Shown: positions 10,256 to 35,011 of the stretch, in pieces
Position numbering within the stretch: position 1 is the stretch's first letter
How the letters are laid out: each line of letters begins with the position of its first letter
Assembly (NCBI GenBank): GCA_031264145.1
Contig: JAISEK010000039.1
Location: 1-35,760 of the forward strand
Reading direction: 5' to 3'
Origin: Deltaproteobacteria bacterium
GTDB taxonomy: Bacteria > Desulfobacterota > Desulfarculia > Adiutricales > Adiutricaceae
Length of the DNA stretch: 35,760 nucleotides
Made by a program: the position numbers and the translations under genes
The notes under the pieces: model-generated
Databases searched by the model: none
What the model was told of the DNA's origin: nothing
The model's input: the letters and a program-made list of their open reading frames with translations, nothing else

Positions 10256-10324
10256 ATATGCGGTGATAGGTTGGCCAAAGCCAAAACATTTGGCTGTCTG
10301 GCTTGCCCAGTTCTGGTGAGTGCG

Positions 10325-13300
10325 ATGGATTTTAAGGCATTGAGAGTTAAGCGGTCGGCCATGGCTCTGGGCCTCCTGGGCCTGGCCGTCGTGCTGGCCG
10401 TCCTGGGCCGGGCCAGCCTGAGGCCGGCGGGCTCGCTGTGGGACGACGGGAGGCCGGAGGTCGAGGAGTTCATCGGCGACTTCCGGAAGATCCCCGGGGT
10501 CACTGACGCCGAGATAGCGGCCATAGAGGGCCTCGGAAAGAGGAGCATATCCTTCGGGACCCAGTACAGCGGGGAGGCCTTCGCGGCCAAGGACGGCCAA
10601 AAGGGGGGCTTCCTCATAAATCTGGCCGCGGCCTTGTCGGGCATGCTGGGCCTGGACATCAGGCATGAGTTCATGCCCCGTGGAGAGCTGGAGGAGGCCC
10701 TGGCCGACGGGCGCCTGGATTTGGCCTGCGAGGTGAGGCTCGACCAGGGGGGCGTCCTGACGCACACCGAGAGCCCCATCTTCAAGCGCCAGATCATGGT
10801 CTTTCGCCGCAAGGGTGATGGGCCGGTCAACTCCTACTTCCCGCTGCAGGACAGCGGGCTGCGGTATGGGTTCCTCCACGACTCGGCGGTGCGGGGGCTC
10901 GTGGTCGGCTCGACCGTCCAGAAAGTGGAGTCCGTCGTCTTCCGGGACAACGAGTCGGCCGTGGAGGCCCTGGAGGAGGGGAGGATCGACGCCTTTTTCG
11001 ACGAGGCTCCGGCGATCGTCTTCTTCAAGCCCCACAACGGGATCGAGGGCCAAAGCTACTTTCCGCCGATAAACACCTCCCAGTTCCTGGCCACCGCCGA
11101 CCCGAGCCTGGCCCCGGTCATAAGCGTGGTCCAGAAGTTCCTGAACGCCGGCGGCACCGAGTACCTGTTCGGGCTCTATGACCGCAGCCGGGTCGAGAAC
11201 CGGAGGACATTCTTCGAGGACGACCTGGACCAGGAACAGAGGATATTCCTGGACCATCTTAGGCTTTCCAAGAAACCCATCAAGGCGTCCATCAAGTCGG
11301 CCAACTACCCGGAAAGCTTCTACAACCACCGCAGCGAACGCTTCGAGGGCGTGGCCCTGGACGTCATGGACAGGCTGGAGTCAATCCTGGGGGTCGGGTT
11401 CGAGATAATAAGCCAGCCCGGCGACGACGAGGAGAAGGCGCGTGACCTCCTGAGGACCGACCAGGCCGACGTCCTGGCCAGCGTCAACTACTTCGAGGAG
11501 GACTCCAGCGACGTGATAATGGGCAGCAAGGCCCTGAGCTACGACCGCTACGCCCTGATTTCCCTGCAGGAGGAGCCGGACCTGCAGCTGAGCCAGATAG
11601 CCTACGTGAGGGTGGGCCTCGTCAGCGGTCTCCAGTACTCGAGGGTTTACTGGATGTGGTTTCCAGAGGCCAGGAACGTGACCACCTTCGGGACCATGGA
11701 GGAGGCCCTGCAGGCCCTCAGGAAGGACAAGGTCGACTACGTCATGGCCTCCCGCAACTTCCTCCTGAACCTGACGAACTTCCAGGAGGAGCCCGGCTTC
11801 AAGCTGGCCCTGGTCTTCGAGGAGGATGTCCCCTCTGGCTTCTGCTACGTCTCGGGCGACTACATGCTCCGCTCGCTCCTGGACGAGGCCATGACCTACA
11901 TAGACCTGAAGCAGATCCAGGCCCAGTGGAACAGCCGCATGTTCGACTACCACTCGAAGTTCGTCAAGGACATAATGCCACTGCTGTGCCTGTTCTCCTT
12001 CCTCCTGCTGGTCGGGATACTGGCCCTGATGCGCATGAACGTCAATAACAGGCGTCTCAACAGGAACCTGGGTCAGCTGGTGGACGAGAGGACCAGGGAA
12101 CTTCTGGCCACCCAGGTGGAGCTGGTCAGCGAGAAGCAGTTTTTGAGCAAGATCCTTGACTCATGCCCGGTCAGCCTAATAATAACGAGGGACGACGAAA
12201 TCATCTTCATCAATCCCTTCGCCAGGAGCTTTTTCGGGAAAAGCGTGGGCGATGGCTGGTCTGACTGCTTCCTGGACAAGGAGGCCGACAGGGAATACCT
12301 GGACGTCATCTCCAGGGGCGGGGAGGTCAACTGGAAGCCGGTAAGCCTAATCAAGGCCAACGGGGAAATCTGCGAGGCCCTCCTGAACTGCTTTTTGGGC
12401 GACTACCTCGGCCACAGGTCCTACATGAACTGGCTGACGGACGTGACCGAGCTCAGGAGGAACGCGACCGAGCTGGCCCTGGCCAGGGAACTGGCCGAGA
12501 AGAACTCCAAGGCCAAGAGCGAGCTGCTGGCCAACATGAGCCACGAGATAAGGACGCCCATGAACGCCATCCTGGGCCTGACCCAGCTGACGCTGCAGAC
12601 GGCCGTGAGCGATGTCCAGAGGGACTACCTGGAAAAGACAATCGACGCGACTACCTCGCTTCTGGGCATAATCAACGACATCCTCGACTTCTCCAAGATA
12701 GAGGCCGGGAAAATCTCGATGGAGGCCATCCCCTTCCGGCTGGACAGGATGCTGGACAAGACCATCAACCTCTTCGTGTTCAAGGCCAGGGAGAAGGGGA
12801 TCGAGCTGATCGTCTACGTTGATCCGAAGACGCCGGCCTTCATAATTGGCGATCCTCTGAGGCTAGGCCAGGTCATAAACAACCTTCTTGGGAACGCCAT
12901 GAAGTTCACCGAGAAGGGGAGCGTCAGGCTAGAGATTGGGACCCAGGCCAAGAACAAGGACAAGATCACCCTGAGGTTTAGGGTCATCGACACTGGCATC
13001 GGCCTCAGCGAGGAGCAGAGGGGCAAGCTGTTCAGCGCCTTCAGCCAGGCCGACTCCTCCTTCACCAGGCGCTACGGCGGCACGGGCCTGGGGCTCTCCA
13101 TAAGCAAGGGCCTGGTGGAGCTGATGAACGGGCAGATCTGGGTCATGGGGGAGCTGGGCAGGGGCTGCGAGTTTGGCTTCACGGCCGTCTTCGGCTGGGA
13201 CGGCGACGAGGTCTGCGGGCAGGAGGTGGCCGCCTTGAGGGAGACCAGGGCCCTGGCCGTGGACGACTACCGGCCGGCCCTGGACGTCCTTTCCAGGTAC

Positions 13301-14077
13301 CTCGGGGAACTTGGGCTCAGGGTCCGGGAGGCCTGGAGCGGGGAGGAGGCCCTGGGGCTCCTGGCCGGCGAGGACAGGGAGGAATTCGATCTGGCCATCA
13401 TCGACTCGGGCGGCCCGGGCCTTGACGGGCTGGCCGTGGCCCGGGCCGTCGCCGGTGAGGGGTTCATCGGGAAAAGGCCCAAGGTCATCCTGGCCGTCAA
13501 CGGGGATGGCGGCGAGTTCCAGGACGGGGCCAGGCTGGCAGGCGTGGACAAGGTCCTGCCCAAGCCCCTGACCCAGAGGTCCCTGGCCGAGGCCCTGGCC
13601 GAGGTCCTGGGACTCCAGGGCGCTCGCGGCGCGACCAGGGCCAGGGAAAAGAGGGGCCAGGAGGAAATGGCCCAGGTCGCCCACCTCAAGGGGGCCAGGA
13701 TCCTTTTGGCCGAGGACAACGAGATCAACCAGCTGGTGGCCACCAGGCTCCTCAAGAACGCCGGCCTCGAGGTCGACGTGGCCCAGAACGGGCAGCAGGC
13801 GCTGACGATGGTCCAGGATGGCGGCTACGACCTGGTCCTCATGGACATCCAGATGCCGGAGATGGACGGCATCACGGCCGCCAAGGCCATCAGGGAGCTG
13901 CCCGGCCTCGAGGGCCTCCCGATCGTCGCCATGACCGCCCACGCCATGATCGGGGACAGGGAGGAGAGCCTGGCCGCCGGCATGAACGACCACATCACCA
14001 AGCCCATCGACCTGAGGGAGCTCTTCAAGGCCCTGGGCCGCTGGATCCGCGCGCCAGGGGCCGGGATGGCCGGCTAG
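10325..14077 (+). CDS. BvgS-like hybrid sensor histidine kinase with two periplasmic solute-binding domains
   Basis: A 1250-residue membrane sensor kinase. Order: N-terminal membrane anchor (about residues 13-28), two tandem type-3 solute-binding (SBP_bac_3) domains (about 55-270 and 300-540) in the periplasm, a second membrane helix near 550-568 (LLCLFSFLLLVGILALM), a PAS domain (about 610-710), HisKA with [13 protein letters not shown] (His near 740), HATPase_c with N box (NNLLGNAMKF), DTGIGL and GGTGLGLS, then two receivers. The last receiver (about 1125-1240) is canonical, with AEDN, LMDIQMPEMDG and ITKP. The first (about 975-1095) keeps IIDSG but has an Ala-Val where the conserved Thr/Ser should be, so it looks degenerate. 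No HPt domain follows, so phosphate must pass to a separate HPt protein. Small amino-acid-like or ionic ligands are typical for the family; the ligand here is unknown. The ATG at 10325 has GGTGAG four bases upstream; an upstream TTG at 10271 is less likely. Confidence 0.93.
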   Translation: MDFKALRVKRSAMALGLLGLAVVLAVLGRASLRPAGSLWDDGRPEVEEFIGDFRKIPGVTDAEIAAIEGLGKRSISFGTQYSGEAFAAKDGQKGGFLINLAAALSGMLGLDIRHEFMPRGELEEALADGRLDLACEVRLDQGGVLTHTESPIFKRQIMVFRRKGDGPVNSYFPLQDSGLRYGFLHDSAVRGLVVGSTVQKVESVVFRDNESAVEALEEGRIDAFFDEAPAIVFFKPHNGIEGQSYFPPINTSQFLATADPSLAPVISVVQKFLNAGGTEYLFGLYDRSRVENRRTFFEDDLDQEQRIFLDHLRLSKKPIKASIKSANYPESFYNHRSERFEGVALDVMDRLESILGVGFEIISQPGDDEEKARDLLRTDQADVLASVNYFEEDSSDVIMGSKALSYDRYALISLQEEPDLQLSQIAYVRVGLVSGLQYSRVYWMWFPEARNVTTFGTMEEALQALRKDKVDYVMASRNFLLNLTNFQEEPGFKLALVFEEDVPSGFCYVSGDYMLRSLLDEAMTYIDLKQIQAQWNSRMFDYHSKFVKDIMPLLCLFSFLLLVGILALMRMNVNNRRLNRNLGQLVDERTRELLATQVELVSEKQFLSKILDSCPVSLIITRDDEIIFINPFARSFFGKSVGDGWSDCFLDKEADREYLDVISRGGEVNWKPVSLIKANGEICEALLNCFLGDYLGHRSYMNWLTDVTELRRNATELALARELAEKNSKAKSELLANMSHEIRTPMNAILGLTQLTLQTAVSDVQRDYLEKTIDATTSLLGIINDILDFSKIEAGKISMEAIPFRLDRMLDKTINLFVFKAREKGIELIVYVDPKTPAFIIGDPLRLGQVINNLLGNAMKFTEKGSVRLEIGTQAKNKDKITLRFRVIDTGIGLSEEQRGKLFSAFSQADSSFTRRYGGTGLGLSISKGLVELMNGQIWVMGELGRGCEFGFTAVFGWDGDEVCGQEVAALRETRALAVDDYRPALDVLSRYLGELGLRVREAWSGEEALGLLAGEDREEFDLAIIDSGGPGLDGLAVARAVAGEGFIGKRPKVILAVNGDGGEFQDGARLAGVDKVLPKPLTQRSLAEALAEVLGLQGARGATRAREKRGQEEMAQVAHLKGARILLAEDNEINQLVATRLLKNAGLEVDVAQNGQQALTMVQDGGYDLVLMDIQMPEMDGITAAKAIRELPGLEGLPIVAMTAHAMIGDREESLAAGMNDHITKPIDLRELFKALGRWIRAPGAGMAG

Positions 14078-23192: not shown

Positions 23193-23498
23193 CTGCACAT
23201 GGGTTTAGTTTGCGCTATATGTCGCAATTTTCTACTAAAGCTTGCCGAAAATCACTAGAATCTATAGCTTTACTGGACAGGGCCTGGTTCTGCGGGAATC
23301 GGCCTTTGGCCTATGCCCGTTCGAGGCTAACGGTCGGTAGGCCATGGGTCGTCCGATATTTTTCTCCCTGGTCCTCACGGGGCGGCTCGGTCCGGGACCA
23401 TCCCGGCCAGCTGCCTTGTGGGAGGGGATTCCATCGGGAGCACGGTTTCCCGGACCGCAGCGAAAGGAACGGCTTGCCAGTGGCAGGCCACGAGGGGT
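23193..23498 (+). other. Long 5' leader of the PAS hybrid kinase gene
   Basis: About 300 bases lie between the promoter and the chosen ATG. It is AT-rich at first, then GC-rich from about 23278. The kinase frame is open from a GTG at 23418, so part of this stretch may be coding if that start is used. No known riboswitch motif was recognised. Confidence 0.4.
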
Positions 23499-26381
23499 AT
23501 GGTTTTGAGAGAAAACCACGTCAACCAGGGTGGCCAGGCAGTGGCCGGCGGGCTGGAGACGGCCGCGCAGGCAGGGCCAGAGGGCACCGGGTCAAGCGGC
23601 CTGGATCCGCCCGGCACAGGGGACTCGTCGATTGGGGCCAAGGTCCAGGCCCTGGCCGAGGCCAGGCAAGCCCTGGGCGTCCCTCCCGATCGCTCCGAGC
23701 TGGAGATCAAGGGCAACTACTTCGCCCTCCTCCTGGAGCACAGCCCCAACATCCTGATCATGCTGGACGGGCAGGGCCGCTTCGTCTACGCCACCGAGTC
23801 CTTCCTCAAGCAGGCCCGCATCGGAGGATTTGAGAGGCTGGCCGGCCTCTCCTTCAAGGAGGTCTTTCCGGGCCCGGATCTCGAGGTCCTCAAGGAACTG
23901 CTGGACATCGCCCTGGAGGAGGGCGGCTCTATGTGCGCTGCCGTCAACACCGGCTGGGACAGCGTTTTTTGCCAGCGGCCCTGTCCGGAGATGAGCTACG
24001 AGATCCACATGAACCCTCTCCTGGACAAGGTGACCGGGGAGATCTCAGGGGTGATGATCATCTGCTCGGACGTGACCGAGGTCCTGAGATCCAAGGAGCA
24101 GGCCGAGCGGGCCAACCGGACCAAGAGCTCGTTTCTGGCCAACATGAGCCACGAGATAAGGACGCCCATGAACGCCATCATCGGCATGGCCGAGCTGGCG
24201 CTGAGGGAGGAAATCTCGCCGGCGGCGACCGAGATGATCCAGAGCATCAAGAGCGCCGGCAAAAACCTCCTGTCGATAATAAACGACATCCTGGACTTCA
24301 CCAAGATAGAGTCCGGCAAGCTTGAGATCGTCGAGGCCGACTACCTTTTCAGCTCCCTCATCCAGGACGTGGTCGGCATCATCAGGACCAGGATCACCGA
24401 AAAGCCCATAGATCTCTTCGTCTACGTCGATCCCCTGATGCCCAACCGCATCAGGGGCGACGAGGTCCGCATCCGCCAGATCCTCCTGAACCTACTGTCA
24501 AACGCCGTCAAGTATACCAAGGAGGGCCACGTCAGGCTCTCCGTGACCCACTGCCAGGAGAGCGGCAGGGACGTATTTTCCTTCGAGGTGGCCGACACGG
24601 GCATCGGCATCAGGCCGGAAAACATGAAGGACCTCTTCTCGGACTTCTCCCAGTTCGACAAGGCGGCCAACAAGGGCATCGAGGGGACCGGCCTGGGCCT
24701 GGCCATCACCCGCAACCTGGCCCGGCTCATGAAGGGCGAGGTCAAGGCCACGAGTGCCTACGGAAAGGGCAGCGTCTTCACGGCCGTTATCCCCCAGACG
24801 GTGACCGACCGGACACCCTACATAAGCGTCAAGGATCCCGAGGGCAAGAGGCTCCTGGTCTACGAGCCCAGGGAGGCCTTCGCCGAGAGCCTCATGGCCT
24901 CCCTGCGCGGCCTTGGCCTGGGCCGGGTCAACCTGGTGAGCGACCCGGTCTCCTTCAACCAGGAACTGGGCAGTGCCGAATACAACTACATCTTCGCACC
25001 CAGCTCCTTCTACTCCCAGGCGCAGCACGTCCTGGCCGCCCAGACTGGCGGTCAGGACGGTGGCAAGAAGGCCAAGCTGGTGTTGATGGCCGAGAGGGGG
25101 GACATCCTGGGCCAGGAGAGCCAGAGCACGGTCTTCATGCCCATCTTTGGCCTGACGCTGGCCTCAATACTGAATGACCAGGAGGTTGCCGCCAGCCTTG
25201 CGGGCGGCCGGGTGGCGGCCCAGACCCGCTTCACGGCCCCCGGGGCCAGGATCCTGGTGGTCGATGACATCATCACCAACCTTAAGGTGGCCGCCGGCCT
25301 GATGATGCCCTACGGGGTGACGGTGGATATCTGCGAGACTGGTCAGGAGGCCCTCAAGCTGGTCGCGAAGAACCACTACGACGTCATCTTCATGGACCAC
25401 ATGATGCCAGGCATGGACGGGCTTGAGGCAACGGCGGCCATCAGGAATTTGCCGGAGGGGGGCGACCTGCCCATAGTGGCCCTGACGGCCAACGCCATCT
25501 CGGGGGTGAGGGAGATGTTTTTGGCCAACGGCCTCAACGACTTCCTCTCCAAGCCCATTGATCCCCTGAAGCTGGAGTCCATGCTCTTCAAGTGGATCCC
25601 CAAGGAAAAGCATGTCCGGCAGTTCCAGCAGGTCAAGGCTCAGGACGTTCTGAAGGTGCCTCCCCAGGAGTCGCGGGACGGCCTGATGGCCATCGAGGTG
25701 GAGGGCCCGGCCGGTGCTGATAATGCCGCCCGGCCAGACCTTGGGCCTGGATACGAGGAGGATGAGGATGACCAGGCGGTGGCCATTCTTGCCTGCGAGG
25801 TTCCGGGGGTCAACCTGGCCGAGGGGCTGGAAAGGCTGGCCGGCGACGTCGGGCTCTACGTCGAGGTCATCGAGGCCTTCGTCCGTTTCACCCCCAAGGT
25901 ACTGGACCAGGTCAGGGGCGGGCCCACGTCCGAAAATCTTCGGGACTACGCCGTGGCCGTCCATGGGATAAAGGGCAGTTGCTTCAACATCGGGGCCCAG
26001 GACGTGGGCGTCCTGGCCGAGGCCCAGGAGCAGGCGGCCAAGGCCGGGAGGCTGGACGAGGCCCTGGCCGGCCATCGGAACTTCGTGGAGTCTGCCGACG
26101 GGCTTATGAGTTCGTTTAGGGGACTATTGATGAAGATGGCCGTCAACGGGGAGGGCGAGGCCGCCCTGGCCAGGTCGGCGGCTCCCCCTGCCGATGTGCT
26201 CAAGGACATTTACCGGGCCTCGGCCAACTTCGACATACAGGCCATGGACGATCTGGTTGGGAAGCTTGAGGCCCAGGAGTACGACCAGGGCGGGGAGCTG
26301 GTGGCCTGGCTCAGGGAACAGATAGACAACCTCGAGTACGACAGCATCACCCAAAGGCTTGCCGTGGAGTTGGGCATGTGA
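23499..26381 (+). CDS. Cytoplasmic PAS hybrid sensor histidine kinase with pseudo-receiver, receiver and HPt domains
   Basis: A 960-residue kinase with no membrane segment, so it should sense an intracellular signal through its PAS domain (about residues 73-200; [22 protein letters not shown], seen as [13 protein letters not shown]). Then HisKA with [16 protein letters not shown] (His near 218), HATPase_c with [15 protein letters not shown] and GTGLGLA, a pseudo-receiver (about 447-557) that lacks the phospho-acceptor Asp, a canonical receiver (about 583-700, [19 protein letters not shown]), and an HPt domain (about 768-877) with [12 protein letters not shown], His near 822. A helical tail of about 80 residues follows. 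All steps of a phosphorelay up to HPt are present; no output regulator is adjacent. The start is uncertain: ATG 23499 (GAGGGG one base upstream, very close) or GTG 23418 (no ribosome site), which would add 27 residues. Confidence 0.93.
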
Positions 26382-26450: not shown

Positions 26451-26786
26451 CTAGCGGCTCCTGCCGGAGCGGCGGCCTGCCCGGTCGTAGTAGCTGGCGT
26501 TGCCCAGGGAGTCGGCCCTGCTCCTGCCGGTGCGGCGGCCTGTCCGGTCATAGTAGCTGGCGTTGCCCGTTGTCTCGCTGCGGGTGTCCTCTGGCGAAGG
26601 TCGCGCCTTGTGGCCGCGGAGGCTTTGGTTGTCCGCCGTGCCCTTGCTGGCGTCTCCGGTGGAGTTGCGACAGGTTGTCCGGTCGTGGGTTTTTTTCTCG
26701 CAGCTGAGGTCATCGGCCAGGGCCGAGACGCCCAGGCCGAGGCAGACGGCCAGGGCCATGACGGCAATGATGGTCATCTTGTTCAT
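26451..26786 (-). CDS. Small secreted protein with a tandem YYDRxGRRxGRSR repeat
   Basis: A 111-residue protein with a clear signal peptide (residues 1-24, ending SALA-DD). The mature part is short and polar. Near the start it has two Cys (SCEKKTHDRTTC) that could form a disulfide. At the end it has two copies of GNASYYDRTGRRTGRSR, 21 residues apart, the second ending at the C-terminus. Similar Tyr-Asp-Arg-x-Gly-Arg repeats occur in other small exported bacterial proteins that I cannot name with confidence. Function is unknown; the basic Arg-rich repeats suggest binding to a polyanion or to the envelope. It is convergent with the PAS hybrid kinase and divergent from the HD-GYP operon. The ribosome site is weak and A-rich. 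Confidence 0.75.
   Translation of the reverse strand: MNKMTIIAVMALAVCLGLGVSALADDLSCEKKTHDRTTCRNSTGDASKGTADNQSLRGHKARPSPEDTRSETTGNASYYDRTGRRTGRSRADSLGNASYYDRAGRRSGRSR
26458..26568 (-). repeat. Two copies of a ~48-bp repeat with 63-bp period inside the small secreted gene
   Basis: Copies at 26458-26505 and 26521-26568 differ at only a few positions (for example GGAGCGG versus GGTGCGG, and CGTAG versus CATAG). They encode the two GNASYYDR repeats. Substitutions are partly silent, which suggests the protein repeat is maintained. Confidence 0.8.
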
Positions 26787-27095: not shown

Positions 27096-28190
27096 ATGAA
27101 AGTGCCCCAATCCAGCCCCAAGGGCCAGGCCGGCCAGGGGATACCCCTTCCCAAGGTCCTGGTGGTCGACGACAACCTGGCCAACCTCTCGTACATAGGT
27201 TCCCAGCTGTCCAGCCAGTACGGCGTCCTCATGGCCAAGTCCGGCCAGCAGGCCCTGGCCATCGCCTCCCGCAACCAGCCCGACTTGATTCTTCTGGACA
27301 TCGACATGCCTGGGATGGACGGCTTCGAGACCATGGCCAGGCTCCAGGACAGCGACTCCCTGCGTCGGATCCCAGTCATATACCTGACGGCCAACCATGA
27401 CCTTGAGATAGAGCTCAAGGGCCTGGACTCCGGGGCCAAGGACTTCGTCACCAAGCCCTTCCAGCGCGACATAATCATCCACCGTATAAACCTGCAGCTT
27501 AGGATGGCCAAGTACCAGCACCTGCTGGAGGAGACGGTCAAGGAGCTGGAGGACAGCATGGTCGCCTCCTTCTCCGGCCTCATCGAGTGCCGGGACGGCA
27601 ACACCGGTGGCCATGTCCTTAGGACCAAGAGGTACGTCTCCATCCTGGGCGGGCTGGCCATCGACAAGGGCCTCTTCCCCGACTCCCTGAACACCAGGGA
27701 GCTGGGTCTCATGGCCCGGGCCGCCCCGCTCCACGACATCGGCAAGATCGGCATCTCGGATGACATCCTCCTAAAGGAGGGGCGGTTCCATGACGACGAG
27801 TTCGAGATGATGAAGAGGCACACGACAATCGGGGCCGAGATCATCGACCATATGTACCGCAAGGCTCCCACCCAGCACTACCTGGCCTACGGCAAGAAGA
27901 TTGCCCTGAGCCACCACGAGATGTACAACGGGCAGGGCTACCCCGAGGGCCTGGCCGGGGAGGACATCCCCCTGTGCAGCCGCATCCTGGCCGTGGCCGA
28001 CGTCTACGACGCCCTGGTCGAGGAGCGCATCTACCGGCCGGCCTTGAGCCACAAGTCCGCGGTGCGCATAATCAGGGACGGCCGGGGCACGATCTTCGAC
28101 CCCGTCCTGGTCGACGTGTTCCTGGACAACGATTCTCTTTTCGCCTCCAAGGACAGGGGCGGCAGGAAGGTCCTCCAAGCCTTCCAATAG
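27096..28190 (+). CDS. Response regulator with HD-GYP cyclic-di-GMP phosphodiesterase domain
   Basis: A 364-residue two-domain regulator. The receiver (about residues 19-135) has VVDDN, the phospho-acceptor Asp in LLDIDMPGMDG near residue 68, a Thr in IYLTAN and Lys in TKP, so it is complete. A helical linker of about 20 residues leads to the HD-GYP domain (about 160-345) with GGHVLRTK, HDIGKIGI near 213, HTTIGAEI, and HHEMYNGQGYPEGL near 273. HD-GYP proteins hydrolyse c-di-GMP to pGpG or GMP at a two- or three-iron centre; the metal ligands I can read are intact. The third motif is GQGYP rather than the more usual GTGYP. It heads a plus-strand cluster and is followed after 42 bp by a paralogue. 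The cognate kinase is not adjacent; either hybrid kinase in the window could act through an HPt. Confidence 0.95.
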   Translation: MKVPQSSPKGQAGQGIPLPKVLVVDDNLANLSYIGSQLSSQYGVLMAKSGQQALAIASRNQPDLILLDIDMPGMDGFETMARLQDSDSLRRIPVIYLTANHDLEIELKGLDSGAKDFVTKPFQRDIIIHRINLQLRMAKYQHLLEETVKELEDSMVASFSGLIECRDGNTGGHVLRTKRYVSILGGLAIDKGLFPDSLNTRELGLMARAAPLHDIGKIGISDDILLKEGRFHDDEFEMMKRHTTIGAEIIDHMYRKAPTQHYLAYGKKIALSHHEMYNGQGYPEGLAGEDIPLCSRILAVADVYDALVEERIYRPALSHKSAVRIIRDGRGTIFDPVLVDVFLDNDSLFASKDRGGRKVLQAFQ

Positions 28191-28232
28191 GGGTTCCGGG
28201 GCCGGCTGGCCGGGCCCATGTGTGGGGCGGGC

Positions 28233-29258
28233 ATGAGCAGAATTCTGATAGTCGATGACAACCTGGCCACCCTCAGGTCCATCGGGGCCCAGCTGGGCGA
28301 CCGCTTCGAGGTTAGGCTGGCCAAGAGTTCCCGGCAGGCCCTGGCCATGGCCGAGAGCCAAAGGCCAGACTTGGTCCTCCTGGAGATTGAGCTCCAGGAC
28401 CTGGACGGCTTCCAGACCATGAACCTTATGCGCAAGAGGCCGGCCCTGGCCAGGGTTCCGGTCATCTTCCTGTCGGCCTCCCGCGATCCGGAGATGGAGT
28501 CCAGGGCCCTGGCGCAGGGGGCGGTCGATTTCATCTCCAAGCCAGTGGAGAGGCGGCTCCTAAGGAACCGCCTGGACCTGCACCTGAGGCTTTCGGCCTA
28601 CCAGGCCGGGCTGGAGCACACCATCCGGGACCTTGAGGACGTCATCGTCACCTCCTTCTCGGAGCTGGTCGAATGCCGCGACGAGCATACCGGCGGCCAT
28701 GTCCAAAGGACCAAGACCTACACCAAGGTCCTGGGCCAGGCCATCCTGGACCGGGACGTATATCCAGGCCAGCTGGATCCCCGGCGGCTGGATCTCCTTT
28801 CCCGGGCCGCCCCCCTCCACGACATCGGGAAGATCGGCATAAGCGATCTCCTTTTGATGAAGAGGGGCAAGCTGACGGCCGAGGAATACGAGACGGTCAA
28901 GCTCCACACCACCATCGGGGCCGACGTCCTGAGATCCATCTACGAGAGCACCCCGACGCAGACCTACCTCAGGTTCGCAATAGCCATAGCCGAGGGCCAC
29001 CACGAGCGCTTCGACGGACAGGGATACCCCCACGGCCAGGCCGGCCTGGAGATCGATCTGTCCAACCGGATCATGAGCGTGGTCAACGTCTACGATTCCC
29101 TGGTCACCGACCGCAGCTACCGGCCGGCCTTCAGCCACGAAAAGGCCATCGAGCTGGTCCTGGCGGGCAGGGGGACCGAGTTCGATCCAGCCATCATCGA
29201 CGTCTTCAAGGAGGTCTGCCACCAGTTCGGGGCGGTCAAGGACCTGACATTCCGCTAG
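28233..29258 (+). CDS. HD-GYP response-regulator paralogue with Asp-to-Glu receiver
   Basis: A 341-residue paralogue of the preceding gene (same architecture, many identical segments such as RAAPLHDIGKIGIS and HTTIGADV). In the receiver the acidic pair VDDN and Lys in SKP are kept, but the phospho-acceptor position reads LLEIELQDLDG, so Asp is replaced by Glu near residue 50. Glu at this place often mimics a permanently phosphorylated state. The HD-GYP domain keeps HDIGKIGI (near 196) and HHERFDGQGYPHG (near 256), so c-di-GMP hydrolysis is probably intact. The start at 28233 gives MSRILIVDDN and has a G-rich box upstream; ATG 28218 would add five residues. It probably arose by tandem duplication, followed by loss of phosphorylation control. 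Confidence 0.93.
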   Translation: MSRILIVDDNLATLRSIGAQLGDRFEVRLAKSSRQALAMAESQRPDLVLLEIELQDLDGFQTMNLMRKRPALARVPVIFLSASRDPEMESRALAQGAVDFISKPVERRLLRNRLDLHLRLSAYQAGLEHTIRDLEDVIVTSFSELVECRDEHTGGHVQRTKTYTKVLGQAILDRDVYPGQLDPRRLDLLSRAAPLHDIGKIGISDLLLMKRGKLTAEEYETVKLHTTIGADVLRSIYESTPTQTYLRFAIAIAEGHHERFDGQGYPHGQAGLEIDLSNRIMSVVNVYDSLVTDRSYRPAFSHEKAIELVLAGRGTEFDPAIIDVFKEVCHQFGAVKDLTFR

Positions 29259-31509: not shown

Positions 31510-34419
31510 TCAGTAGTACATCTTGATGTATTTGTACGCCTTGTTGAAGAGTTCCTGATCTTTGATTTTGTATTTGACCCATACGACGCTGCGTAGAGCT
31601 TGCGTGACTTCCTGGCGTCCGGTTGTCGTGTCCTGCCAGCCGTCGAAGCGCACTATTTTCACGATACCGTCGATGTCATTCACGATCCGCTCCACGATGA
31701 CCGGCGTGTTGGGATTCTTCACGCTTTTGAACAGTTCGGTCAATGCGGCCTTCCCTTTGTCTATTTCTGGATCAGGCACGTTTTCTTTTTCCGCTTGTGC
31801 GGCCTCCTTCGCGAGTTCGAGCAGCGTTTTCAGAAATTCTATGCTGGTTATCAATCCTTGGGCGTGTTTTTCCCGCAAATCTTCAAGGTGTTCTCCCAGT
31901 TTGATGAATCGAGGGTCCTGATTGTGCTTGAGGATACGGGCGATCAAGTTGATTTCAAGCGTCTTCGCGGCGGTATCCTTGGCGTGTTTGTTTTCAAAGT
32001 AGGTGTCGATTATGTCCGCGTCCAGCCGAAGGATTTCCGTGTCGGCCGGGAGAGGATCGGCGGTGATGTTCTGATGCACAAGCTCAATGGTTTTAGCCCC
32101 CAACGCCGCCCAAATTAAAGCACCGCGGTTGTCGGTGGGCTTCACGGATTCATAGACTTTCGTCAGCCAGAGGTAGTCTGACTTATACGGAGCGAGGAAC
32201 ACGTCAGGAGAAAGGGCCTCCCACGCCCGGTTCAAAACTTTGTAATCCGCGCCGAAAGCGTCTTTTGTCTCGTTGGTCGGAAGGCATTCCTGCGCGGCCA
32301 TCAGTCCTTCCCAGCCCTCCACCGTCCGGTCCACGCCATTGAAATAGGACAGGCACTTATTCAAAAGCTTGGGGAGTTCCTTCTTGACCTCCGCGATATT
32401 CGTGATGACCTGCTGGACGTTTTTCTCGTCGAAGTCCAGAGCGCGGGCCACGTCGTCGAATATGCCGATGTAGTCCACGATGAGCCCGTGAGATTTCGTT
32501 TGTCCGTAGAGGCGGTTTGTGCGACAAATAGCTTGCAGCAAGGTGTGGTCTCTCATGGGCTTGTCCAAGTACATCGCTTGAAGGATCGGCGCGTCGAAGC
32601 CGGTAAGCAATTTCGATGTCACAATGACCAATTTGAGCGGGCTGTCCTGCTCACGGAAATAATCGAGAAGCCTTCCTTCCTCATCGCGATCGCGCCGGTA
32701 CGCCTTATATTTGCCCTCTTTGTCGTTGTTGGTATCCATCACAATAGTGGACGCTTCTTCCCCAAGCAAAGCGTCCAACTCTTTTTTATACATCAGACAG
32801 CATTCGCGGTCGTAGCAAACGACCTGTCCCTTGAAGCCGTTTGGCTCGATTTTCTCCTTGTAATGTTTAGCGATGTGCTCACAGACTGTTTTGACGCGCT
32901 TCGGAGCTTTCATGATGGATTCCATTTTCACGCGCCGAACGAGTTCCGTTTTTTCGTCTTCATCCAAGCTGTCCGTCATTTCCTTAAAGGCTTCGTCAAC
33001 GATTTCCTGATTGACGTGCAATTCCACCGGCACGGCCTCGAAGTGCAAAGGCAGCGTCGCGTTGTCGCGGATGGAATCGGAAAAAGAATAGCGGCTCATG
33101 TACCCGGTTCTGTCTTCCAATGCGCCGAATGTGAAGAACGTGTTTTTATCCGTGCGATTGATCGGCGTTCCTGTCAGTCCGAAAAAGAAGGCGTTCGGCA
33201 GGGCCGCCCGCATTTTTTCGCCGAGGTTGCCTTCCTGGGTCCTGTGCGCTTCGTCCACCATGAGTATGATGTTGTCGCGGGCGTTGAGCACCCCGTCCAC
33301 TTCTCCAAACTTGTAGATGGTCGTAATCAGAATTTTCCTCATGTCGCCCTTGAAGAAAGCGATCAAGGCTTCTTTGCTCGTGGCACTTTCCAAGTTTGGG
33401 ATGTCTGATGCGTTGAAAGTGGCGGTGATTTGCGTTTCCAAGTCGATGCGGTCGTCCACTATCACCACCGTCGGGTTCTTGAGTTCAGGGGCCATCCTAA
33501 GTTTTTGAGCCGCAAACACCATGAGAAGCGATTTTCCGCTGCCTTGAAAATGCCAGATCAAGCCTTTCTTGGGATAACCCGTTATCACGCGCTCGACAAT
33601 GAGATTTGCGCCCTCGAATTGTTGATAGCGGCAAATGACTTTGTATTTACGATATTTTTTATCTGTCGCAAAGATCGTGAAGAACTGAAAAATGTCCATG
33701 ATGATTTCTGGCTTCATCATTGCGGCGACGCTTCGGTTCACATCGACGAGCGTGCCTTCATTTTTGTTCTCCGGCGTATGCCAAGGACCCCAAAGGTTGA
33801 TGGGCATCCTCACCGCTCCATAGCGGAACATTTTGCCTTCAGTAGCGAAATTGAATACGTTCGAGACGAACATTTGAGGGACGCTTTTTTCGTAAGCAGC
33901 GATGTCCCCGGCTCCATCCATCCAAGTGATCGCGTTCCGCACAGGGGTTTTCAGTTCTCCAACGGAAATCGGGAAGCCGTTGACGAGCAAAACGATGTCG
34001 AACCGTTTGCCGCCGTCGTCTCTGGGGAAGACCCATTGATTGGTGACGACGTATTCGTTCATCGTCAAGTTGTCTTTCGTTCCTGTTCCAAAAAAGCGGA
34101 TGGGGATCATGCGCCCGTCCCGCCCGAAGGGATAGGAATTGTTCTCGAAGATCAGTTTTTTGAAGACTTCGTTTTGATGTACGAGGTTTTCCGGGCGGAC
34201 AGAAAAAATCACCGTGCGCAGTTTGTAAATCACCTCATCGGCGCGGCCGGGGTCCTCCGCGATTTCCGGGTTCAGGCGGATGAGCGCGGCCCGTATCATA
34301 GGCTCGACCATGACGTCTGAATGGGAACGCGGAAGCTCCTCGGCTGGAATGTACTTCCAGCCGTTTTTGCTGATGGTTTCAATCAGCATTTTCTCCACGG
34401 TGTTGTCTTCGTTGAACAT
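31510..34419 (-). CDS. hsdR: Type I restriction enzyme R subunit
   Basis: The 969-residue motor and nuclease subunit of a type I restriction-modification complex; it translocates DNA and cuts far from the unmethylated recognition site. The N-terminal PD-(D/E)xK nuclease reads RFDIVLLVNG (Asp near 138) and VGELKTP (Glu and Lys near 155). The helicase has Walker A HFQGSGKSLL near 296, the DEAH box MVDEAHRT near 388, FGLTGTPI, and the arginine-finger motif LLQAICRTNRLYG. The C-terminal region is typical of the family. The start is the ATG at 34419 (MFNEDNTVEK), because it has GGAGG eight bases upstream and matches the family start; an in-frame ATG 12 codons earlier has no such support. It overlaps the end of the GNAT-HsdS gene by 41 bp. 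All motifs look intact. Composition is less GC-rich than the chromosome. Confidence 0.97.
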   Translation of the reverse strand: MFNEDNTVEKMLIETISKNGWKYIPAEELPRSHSDVMVEPMIRAALIRLNPEIAEDPGRADEVIYKLRTVIFSVRPENLVHQNEVFKKLIFENNSYPFGRDGRMIPIRFFGTGTKDNLTMNEYVVTNQWVFPRDDGGKRFDIVLLVNGFPISVGELKTPVRNAITWMDGAGDIAAYEKSVPQMFVSNVFNFATEGKMFRYGAVRMPINLWGPWHTPENKNEGTLVDVNRSVAAMMKPEIIMDIFQFFTIFATDKKYRKYKVICRYQQFEGANLIVERVITGYPKKGLIWHFQGSGKSLLMVFAAQKLRMAPELKNPTVVIVDDRIDLETQITATFNASDIPNLESATSKEALIAFFKGDMRKILITTIYKFGEVDGVLNARDNIILMVDEAHRTQEGNLGEKMRAALPNAFFFGLTGTPINRTDKNTFFTFGALEDRTGYMSRYSFSDSIRDNATLPLHFEAVPVELHVNQEIVDEAFKEMTDSLDEDEKTELVRRVKMESIMKAPKRVKTVCEHIAKHYKEKIEPNGFKGQVVCYDRECCLMYKKELDALLGEEASTIVMDTNNDKEGKYKAYRRDRDEEGRLLDYFREQDSPLKLVIVTSKLLTGFDAPILQAMYLDKPMRDHTLLQAICRTNRLYGQTKSHGLIVDYIGIFDDVARALDFDEKNVQQVITNIAEVKKELPKLLNKCLSYFNGVDRTVEGWEGLMAAQECLPTNETKDAFGADYKVLNRAWEALSPDVFLAPYKSDYLWLTKVYESVKPTDNRGALIWAALGAKTIELVHQNITADPLPADTEILRLDADIIDTYFENKHAKDTAAKTLEINLIARILKHNQDPRFIKLGEHLEDLREKHAQGLITSIEFLKTLLELAKEAAQAEKENVPDPEIDKGKAALTELFKSVKNPNTPVIVERIVNDIDGIVKIVRFDGWQDTTTGRQEVTQALRSVVWVKYKIKDQELFNKAYKYIKMYY

Positions 34420-35011
34420 CTCCGTCGCCTCCAATGGCACAGCGCAAGTTTTCATTTAGTATAGCGGATTCTTTGACGAGAGTCTCAGCCACAAACTTTG
34501 ATTTGTCGGCCTGTTCAACAAACGCCGCGAAGCGGGTTTGTAGGTCCAGAGGAGAGACAATAACTTCCAGATTGGCGATCATTCCGGTATTCAGATTCAT
34601 CATCGTAACGCCAACGGCCTTGTTTTCTAATATTGTTCGCATTGCATCCGAAGATATGATTCTATGAGAAATCCTAAAACCGTTTTTCTGGTAAAACTTT
34701 AGTATCCAAGGGCTGTCGCCTGTCTCCACAAGCATGGTTGCATACTTGCCTTTGTAATACGAAAAGATGTGACTCAAAAGTTTGTTTCCATACCCTTTGC
34801 CATGCCATTTTTCATAAGTGGCAATATTTTTTAGCTCACAAATGTCGTCGCTTTCTCGCGTAACTACGCAAACACTTTTCAAGTCACCGTCGTATAAGGC
34901 AAAAAGCTCGCCTCGTTCTAAATATTTGTCTATCATTGATTCTTGTTCATCAGCCAACAAGAGCAAATCCAGAAATTGTTTCTTGTTTTCGTCAATCCTT
35001 TTTATCTCCAA
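34379..35011 (-). CDS. GNAT acetyltransferase fused to an HsdS C-terminal segment
   Basis: A 210-residue chimera. Residues 1-118 are a GNAT-fold N-acetyltransferase: LLLLADEQESMIDKYLERGE, cited in part, FALYDGDLKSVCVV, then the acetyl-CoA pyrophosphate-binding loop HGKGYGNKLL near residue 71, and SPWILKFYQKNGF near 102-112. After GFRISHRI the sequence switches to ILENKAVGVTMMNLNTGMI, then LEVIVSPLDLQTRFAAFVEQ and ADKSKF. This is the end of a type I specificity subunit (last piece of a target-recognition domain plus the conserved coiled coil). The switch is near 34640-34660. The start is taken as TTG at 35011 (LEIKRIDE), because GNAT relatives begin MEIKRI, with GGTGG seven bases upstream. A TTG at 35035 is an alternative. 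The gene lies 51 bp after hsdS and overlaps hsdR by 41 bp. Substrate unknown. Confidence 0.8.
   Translation of the reverse strand: MEIKRIDENKKQFLDLLLLADEQESMIDKYLERGELFALYDGDLKSVCVVTRESDDICELKNIATYEKWHGKGYGNKLLSHIFSYYKGKYATMLVETGDSPWILKFYQKNGFRISHRIISSDAMRTILENKAVGVTMMNLNTGMIANLEVIVSPLDLQTRFAAFVEQADKSKFVAETLVKESAILNENLRCAIGGDGDVQRRQHRGENAD

Follow-up and report, generated by a model that had tools for sequence, protein, structure and literature searches.

Conserved Asp/Asn pairs of REC-HD-GYP response regulators suggest a two-subunit phosphodiesterase with a catalytically weakened partner

Two adjacent genes in a deltaproteobacterial genome encode response regulators of the same architecture, and the second carries a glutamate where the first has its phospho-acceptor aspartate, which raises the question of what the second protein does beside the first. 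We analyzed this locus in a window of 35,760 nucleotides (assembly GCA_031264145.1, contig JAISEK010000039.1, the whole stretch of DNA considered here) from a 4.01 Mb draft genome of the Adiutricaceae. An initial annotation had proposed that the glutamate mimics phosphoaspartate and renders copy 2 constitutively active, the pair setting a basal and an inducible rate of c-di-GMP degradation or acting as a heterodimer. The features of the locus are the following.

23418..26381, plus strand: hybrid histidine kinase (PAS-HisKA-HATPase-REC-Hpt), from Pfam and from orthologues with 53-61% identity in L040, L042, L045, and L046
27096..28190, plus strand: copy 1, canonical REC-HD-GYP protein of the Asp type (open reading frame, Pfam, complete residue set)
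27297..27299, plus strand: GAC codon of the phospho-acceptor Asp, copy 1
27999..28001, plus strand: GAC codon of the Asp at the PmGH D305 position, copy 1 (alignment to PmGH)
28233..29258 (alternative start 28218), plus strand: copy 2, REC-HD-GYP protein with Asn at the D305 position (open reading frame, Pfam, AlphaFold model)
28242..28574, plus strand: receiver domain, copy 2 (Pfam PF00072, residues 9-119)
28383..28385, plus strand: GAG codon of the Glu at the phospho-acceptor position, copy 2
28656..29195, plus strand: HD-GYP domain, copy 2 (Pfam PF13487, residues 147-326)
29085..29087, plus strand: AAC codon of the Asn at the metal ligand position PmGH D305, copy 2 (alignment to PmGH)

Each copy has a Response_reg domain followed by an HD_5 domain in Pfam, and HD_5, the GYP motif, and PDB matches agree in placing the locus in the HD-GYP family. 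The domain order, the fold, and the HD, HH, and GYP motifs are those of REC-HD-GYP response regulators of the RpfG/PA4781 type and, for the HD-GYP domain, of PmGH. The genes lie 27-42 bases apart, depending on whether copy 2 starts at 28233 or at an in-frame ATG at 28218. c-di-GMP is a plausible nucleotide for the system because the genome itself has seven GGDEF matches; an Rfam search of the window found no c-di-GMP riboswitch near the locus. Also in the window, on the minus strand, are a small putative secreted protein (26451-26786) with a signal-like N terminus and repeats of NASYYDR(T/A)GRR(T/S)GRSR, and a large protein (31510-34455) that, judged from reading only, resembles a type I restriction R subunit.

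The metal site separates the two copies. Copy 1 has the receiver Asp and all ligands of the H...HD...H...HH...D set, whereas copy 2 lacks the last of them: where PmGH (PDB entry 4mcw) has ligand D305, the aligned residue of copy 1 is Asp (VADVYDAL) and that of copy 2 is Asn (VVNVYDSL). The initial annotation, which described the metal ligands of copy 2 as kept, had missed this substitution. Neither copy falls in the trinuclear (E/D-T-G) subgroup, which is defined by Glu or Asp at PmGH position 185 (PMC4159591); the third-metal ligand E185 is replaced by Asn in copy 1 and by His in copy 2. The Asn of copy 2, the absence of E185 from both copies, and the Asp/Asn pairing set the locus apart from RpfG, PA4781, and PmGH.

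With a metal ligand absent, copy 2 is probably a poor enzyme. In PmGH, the D305A substitution leaves hydrolysis markedly lower and still detectable, and Ala at H189, H221, D222, H250, H276, or H277 essentially abolishes activity (PMC4159591). Bd1817 of Bdellovibrio, which shares the Asn at the last metal Asp, binds two irons and does not hydrolyze c-di-GMP; its GYP motif is degraded, whereas copy 2 keeps GYP (PMC8177086). We found no description of a paired active partner for Bd1817. Together, these data make weak or absent catalysis by copy 2 more probable than constitutive activity. The AlphaFold model of copy 2 (mean pLDDT 94.3, pTM 0.82) has PA4781 and PmGH as its best PDB matches, with a TMt of 0.91 to PA4781 (4r8z), and includes a long inter-domain helix (residues 112-155) equivalent to that of PmGH.

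The Asn is conserved. It occupies the D305 position in all eight copy-2 orthologues, the window included. In an extended search we found 61 tandem REC-HD-GYP pairs (related sequences), each made up of one Asn and one Asp member, and one further tandem pair that is Glu/Asp at this position; no Asp/Asp or Asn/Asn tandem appeared among the homologues of that search. The Asn gene is upstream in 52 of the 61 pairs and downstream in 9, the window type among them. Overall, the D305 residue is Asn in 64 of 66 non-Asp copies (Glu and Ser in the rest) and Asp in 62/62 paired partners. More distant homologues (L098-L159) all have Asp, with Asn in 0/62; they are 62 of the 80 loci of a named-genome search whose patterns left the D305 site out. 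These counts indicate that Asn at this position is not due to chance and that it, and not the Glu, is the conserved feature of copy 2. For a single origin of the Asn, the AU test gave p=0.237, and a larger tree requires two changes.

Such pairs were found in the window's family, a Treponema family, Synergistaceae, and Desulfovibrionaceae. Strong matches to either type occurred in 52/200 genomes of the Treponema family, 9/83 of Synergistaceae, and 6/288 of Desulfovibrionaceae; a class-wide search confined them to the window's family, and a Clostridiales MAG was the sole genome with a match among 299 sampled genomes of its phylum. Among the named carriers, which bear termite sample codes, Gx485 and Kf353 derive from Glyptotermes and Kalotermes (PMC11707648) and Nt197P3 comes from a termite gut metagenome (PMC9386147); the Adiutricaceae were described from termites (PMC9137090). 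A search of the open-licence literature returned no description of such active/pseudo HD-GYP pairs, and the Asp/Asn enzyme pair is a conserved feature of termite-gut bacteria of several phyla that is apparently new to the literature. A binning artefact is an unlikely source of the cross-phylum pairs, as one is found in a genome assembled as a single contig of 3,855,671 bases (G290, L241) and many others lie on long contigs.

The search also brought up degenerate or unusual sites. The Asn copy L083:3950-5071 is interrupted by one in-frame TAG, which may reflect pseudogenization or an error in the assembly. An unpaired clade of the window's family (L072-L077), possibly of degenerate HD-GYP regulators, has Gly, Ala, or Lys in place of metal ligand H189. 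Gln replaces metal ligand H277 (HQE for HHE) in 18/98 unpaired REC-HD-GYP proteins from Acidovorax, Pseudomonas, and others (L093, L097-L100, L103, L104, L106, L111, L121, L126, L127, L130-L132, L141, L147, and L148); this may relate to the glutamine associated with cGAMP preference in PmxA.

Most Asn copies retain H189, H221, D222, H250, H276, H277, K225, Y285, R314, and the GYP motif; with six of seven ligands, GYP, and R314 mostly kept, some activity may remain. Their dN/dS values, about 0.07-0.16 where measurable and near those of their partners, denote strong purifying selection and show that the Asn copies are functional and maintained. The Asp partners are more uniform, as 62/62 retain the acceptor Asp and H189, H221, D222, H250, H276, and H277, with one outlier at K225/D183. 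Further loss of H189, H221, or D183 was seen in 7/66 Asn-type copies versus 1/62 partners (Fisher p=0.06; the sequences are not independent), one of the seven being H221F in the sister species G003. These extra losses would suit a partner whose catalysis is dispensable.

The same observations bear on the strongest of the other readings, a division of labor in which the Asn site has acquired another substrate or step (for instance conversion of pGpG to GMP, or cleavage of a different cyclic dinucleotide), the pair then acting on successive or on different nucleotides. Retention of the site from H189 to R314 and the purifying selection would fit such a role, and pGpG is the preferred substrate of PA4781 (PMC8177086), to which copy 2 is structurally closest. 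We nevertheless consider this unlikely, since Bd1817 is inactive with the same Asn, some Asn copies persist despite loss of H221 or H189, and no link leads from the Asn to any substrate.

How closely the two types belong together can be seen from their linkage. Three Synergistaceae proteins of 705-727 amino acids (L178, L187 = L085:3681-5819, and L191) join them as REC-HD-GYP(Asn)-REC-HD-GYP(Asp) in a single open frame. Overall, a degenerate copy accompanies an intact one in the 61 pairs and the three fusions. The fusions point to association of the two types and not to the interaction surface used. The heterodimer foreseen by the initial annotation draws support from this tandem linkage and the fusions; its alternative of basal and inducible rates set through the Glu is improbable, given the Asn at D305 and the orthologues described below. 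It is also improbable, against near-obligate linkage and fusion to the Asp type, that copy 2 serves as a stand-alone nucleotide receptor without pairing to copy 1, even though the Desulfovibrio protein DvhD, whose HD-GYP domain lacks metal ligands, acts as a receptor for c-di-GMP (PMC13090378) and ranks among the best fold matches of copy 2, and although in G003 the Asn gene stands apart from its Asp partner, which therefore need not adjoin it.

A hybrid kinase usually accompanies the pairs. In L040, L042, L045, and L046, an orthologue of the window's kinase immediately precedes the pair or its Asp copy. In other phyla, most pairs have a related hybrid kinase no more than about 3 kb away, encoded in two cases on the opposite strand; around pairs L241, L254, and L089, none was present within the stretch read. 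The kinase at 23418-26381 is the probable cognate kinase of the pair. Elsewhere in the window, 10271-14077 encodes another large hybrid kinase-like protein, similar in its kinase and receiver parts to the kinase adjoining the pairs.

We then return to the Glu of copy 2. The substitution is real, GAG standing where copy 1 has GAC, and the remaining receiver residues are kept as annotated: VDDN with its acidic pair, the Lys, and Ser in place of Thr. Copy 1 has the acceptor Asp of a phosphorylatable receiver; copy 2 has the receiver fold with the residue for phosphotransfer absent, as in pseudo-receivers, in which the acceptor Asp is most often replaced by Glu (PMC12632262), so that the Glu alone is unremarkable. 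The acceptor region reads LLDIDMPGMDG in copy 1 and LLEIELQDLDG in copy 2, and the change of MPGMDG to LQDLDG, overlooked initially, is a sign that receiver drift goes past the single acceptor residue.

The orthologues bear this out. In the eight genomes with a copy-2 orthologue (the window and relatives of its genome), the acceptor is Asp in five, all from other genera, Glu in the window, and Gly in two sister species (L040 and L041). Asp in the orthologues is an outcome that the initial annotation had named as refuting its reading. The Gly-bearing species have Gln or Trp at other receiver residues: in L041 the receiver Lys is Trp, with Phe for the His of the HD motif, and in L040 one residue of the acidic pair is gone. 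The three congeneric Asn copies form one clade (support 100/100), and their identity to those of other genera is 51.6% in REC and 64.3% in HD-GYP; for copy 1, the same comparison gives 65.7% and 70.2%. Among all pairs, the acceptor is lost in 4/66 Asn-type copies versus 0/62 Asp partners (p=0.12; related sequences), and, one Desulfovibrionaceae MAG aside, these losses are limited to the window's genus. That MAG, from a termite gut, encodes an Asn copy (L082:4978-6027) with Glu at the acceptor and with D308 and D183 lost; this Glu apparently arose independently of the window's.

Judged by these alignments, the receiver of copy 2 in the window's genus is no longer phosphorylatable and is drifting, the Glu being one of two outcomes and confined, within the genus (Glu, Gly, Gly), to the window's species. 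Glu as a conserved phosphomimic is thereby ruled out. That the Glu makes copy 2 constitutively active, with copy 1 inducible, is improbable: Glu is phosphomimetic in some receivers (PMC12632262), copy 2 keeps the acidic pair, Ser, and Lys, and the Glu of L082 may mean that such an effect operates in some Asn subunits, but the Asn at D305, the Asp or Gly of the orthologues, and a receiver that in this lineage diverges faster than the HD-GYP domain all argue against it.

We therefore favor, with a probability of roughly 0.6, the reading that an active phosphodiesterase forms a heterodimer with a regulatory partner of weakened catalysis, and that in this genus the partner's receiver has become a pseudo-receiver. 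Copies 1 and 2 would be two subunits of one signaling unit. Copy 1 would be a working cyclic dinucleotide phosphodiesterase; copy 2 would derive from an ancient duplicate in which the last metal ligand became Asn, and would fold, probably still hold metal and bind nucleotide, and hydrolyze poorly. As the regulatory subunit, it would use its inter-domain helix and HD-GYP domain to pair with copy 1; PmGH dimerizes via its long inter-domain helix (PMC4159591). The neighboring hybrid kinase would phosphorylate the receivers, both of which should be phosphorylatable in most relatives. With the acceptor of the Asn subunit lost in the window's genus, only copy 1 should receive the signal there, the receiver of copy 2 being fixed in its state.

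Parts of this arrangement have counterparts in known systems. DvhD of Desulfovibrio vulgaris, inferred to be of the same phylum as the window, likewise uses an HD-GYP domain for regulation and not hydrolysis; unlike copy 2, this membrane PAS protein has lost most ligands (SQ stands in place of HD) and is not paired with an active copy (PMC13090378). In copy 2 the receiver follows the pseudo-receivers in its change of Asp to Glu. In the HD-[HD-GYP] phosphodiesterases such as V-cGAP3, a degenerate HD domain precedes an active HD-GYP domain in one chain. The V-cGAP3 structure (5z7c) is among the PDB matches, and the order of its modules is that of the fused chains; here, unlike there, a receiver goes with each module, six of the seven ligands persist in the degenerate one, and the modules are mostly separate genes. 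The HD-GYP response regulator itself is thus known, and what appears to be new is the near-obligate pairing of an active with a pseudo form.

Pseudoenzyme partners are well known among eukaryotic kinases and phosphatases. It is about evenly balanced whether the pairs represent a dedicated class of two-subunit HD-GYP phosphodiesterase under the control of a hybrid kinase, with an Asp catalytic and an Asn pseudo-catalytic subunit, spread between phyla in the termite gut, sometimes fused, and losing phosphorylation of the pseudo-subunit's receiver in one genus. If this is true, HD-GYP dimers may be asymmetric by design, with hydrolysis assigned to one subunit and control to the other. The natural series of pairs with both receivers intact, pairs with one lost, and fused chains would make the role of each subunit's phosphorylation testable. 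The number of HD-GYP genes in a genome would not equal the number of active enzymes, and the pairs point to exchange of a signaling cassette between unrelated bacteria of the termite gut.
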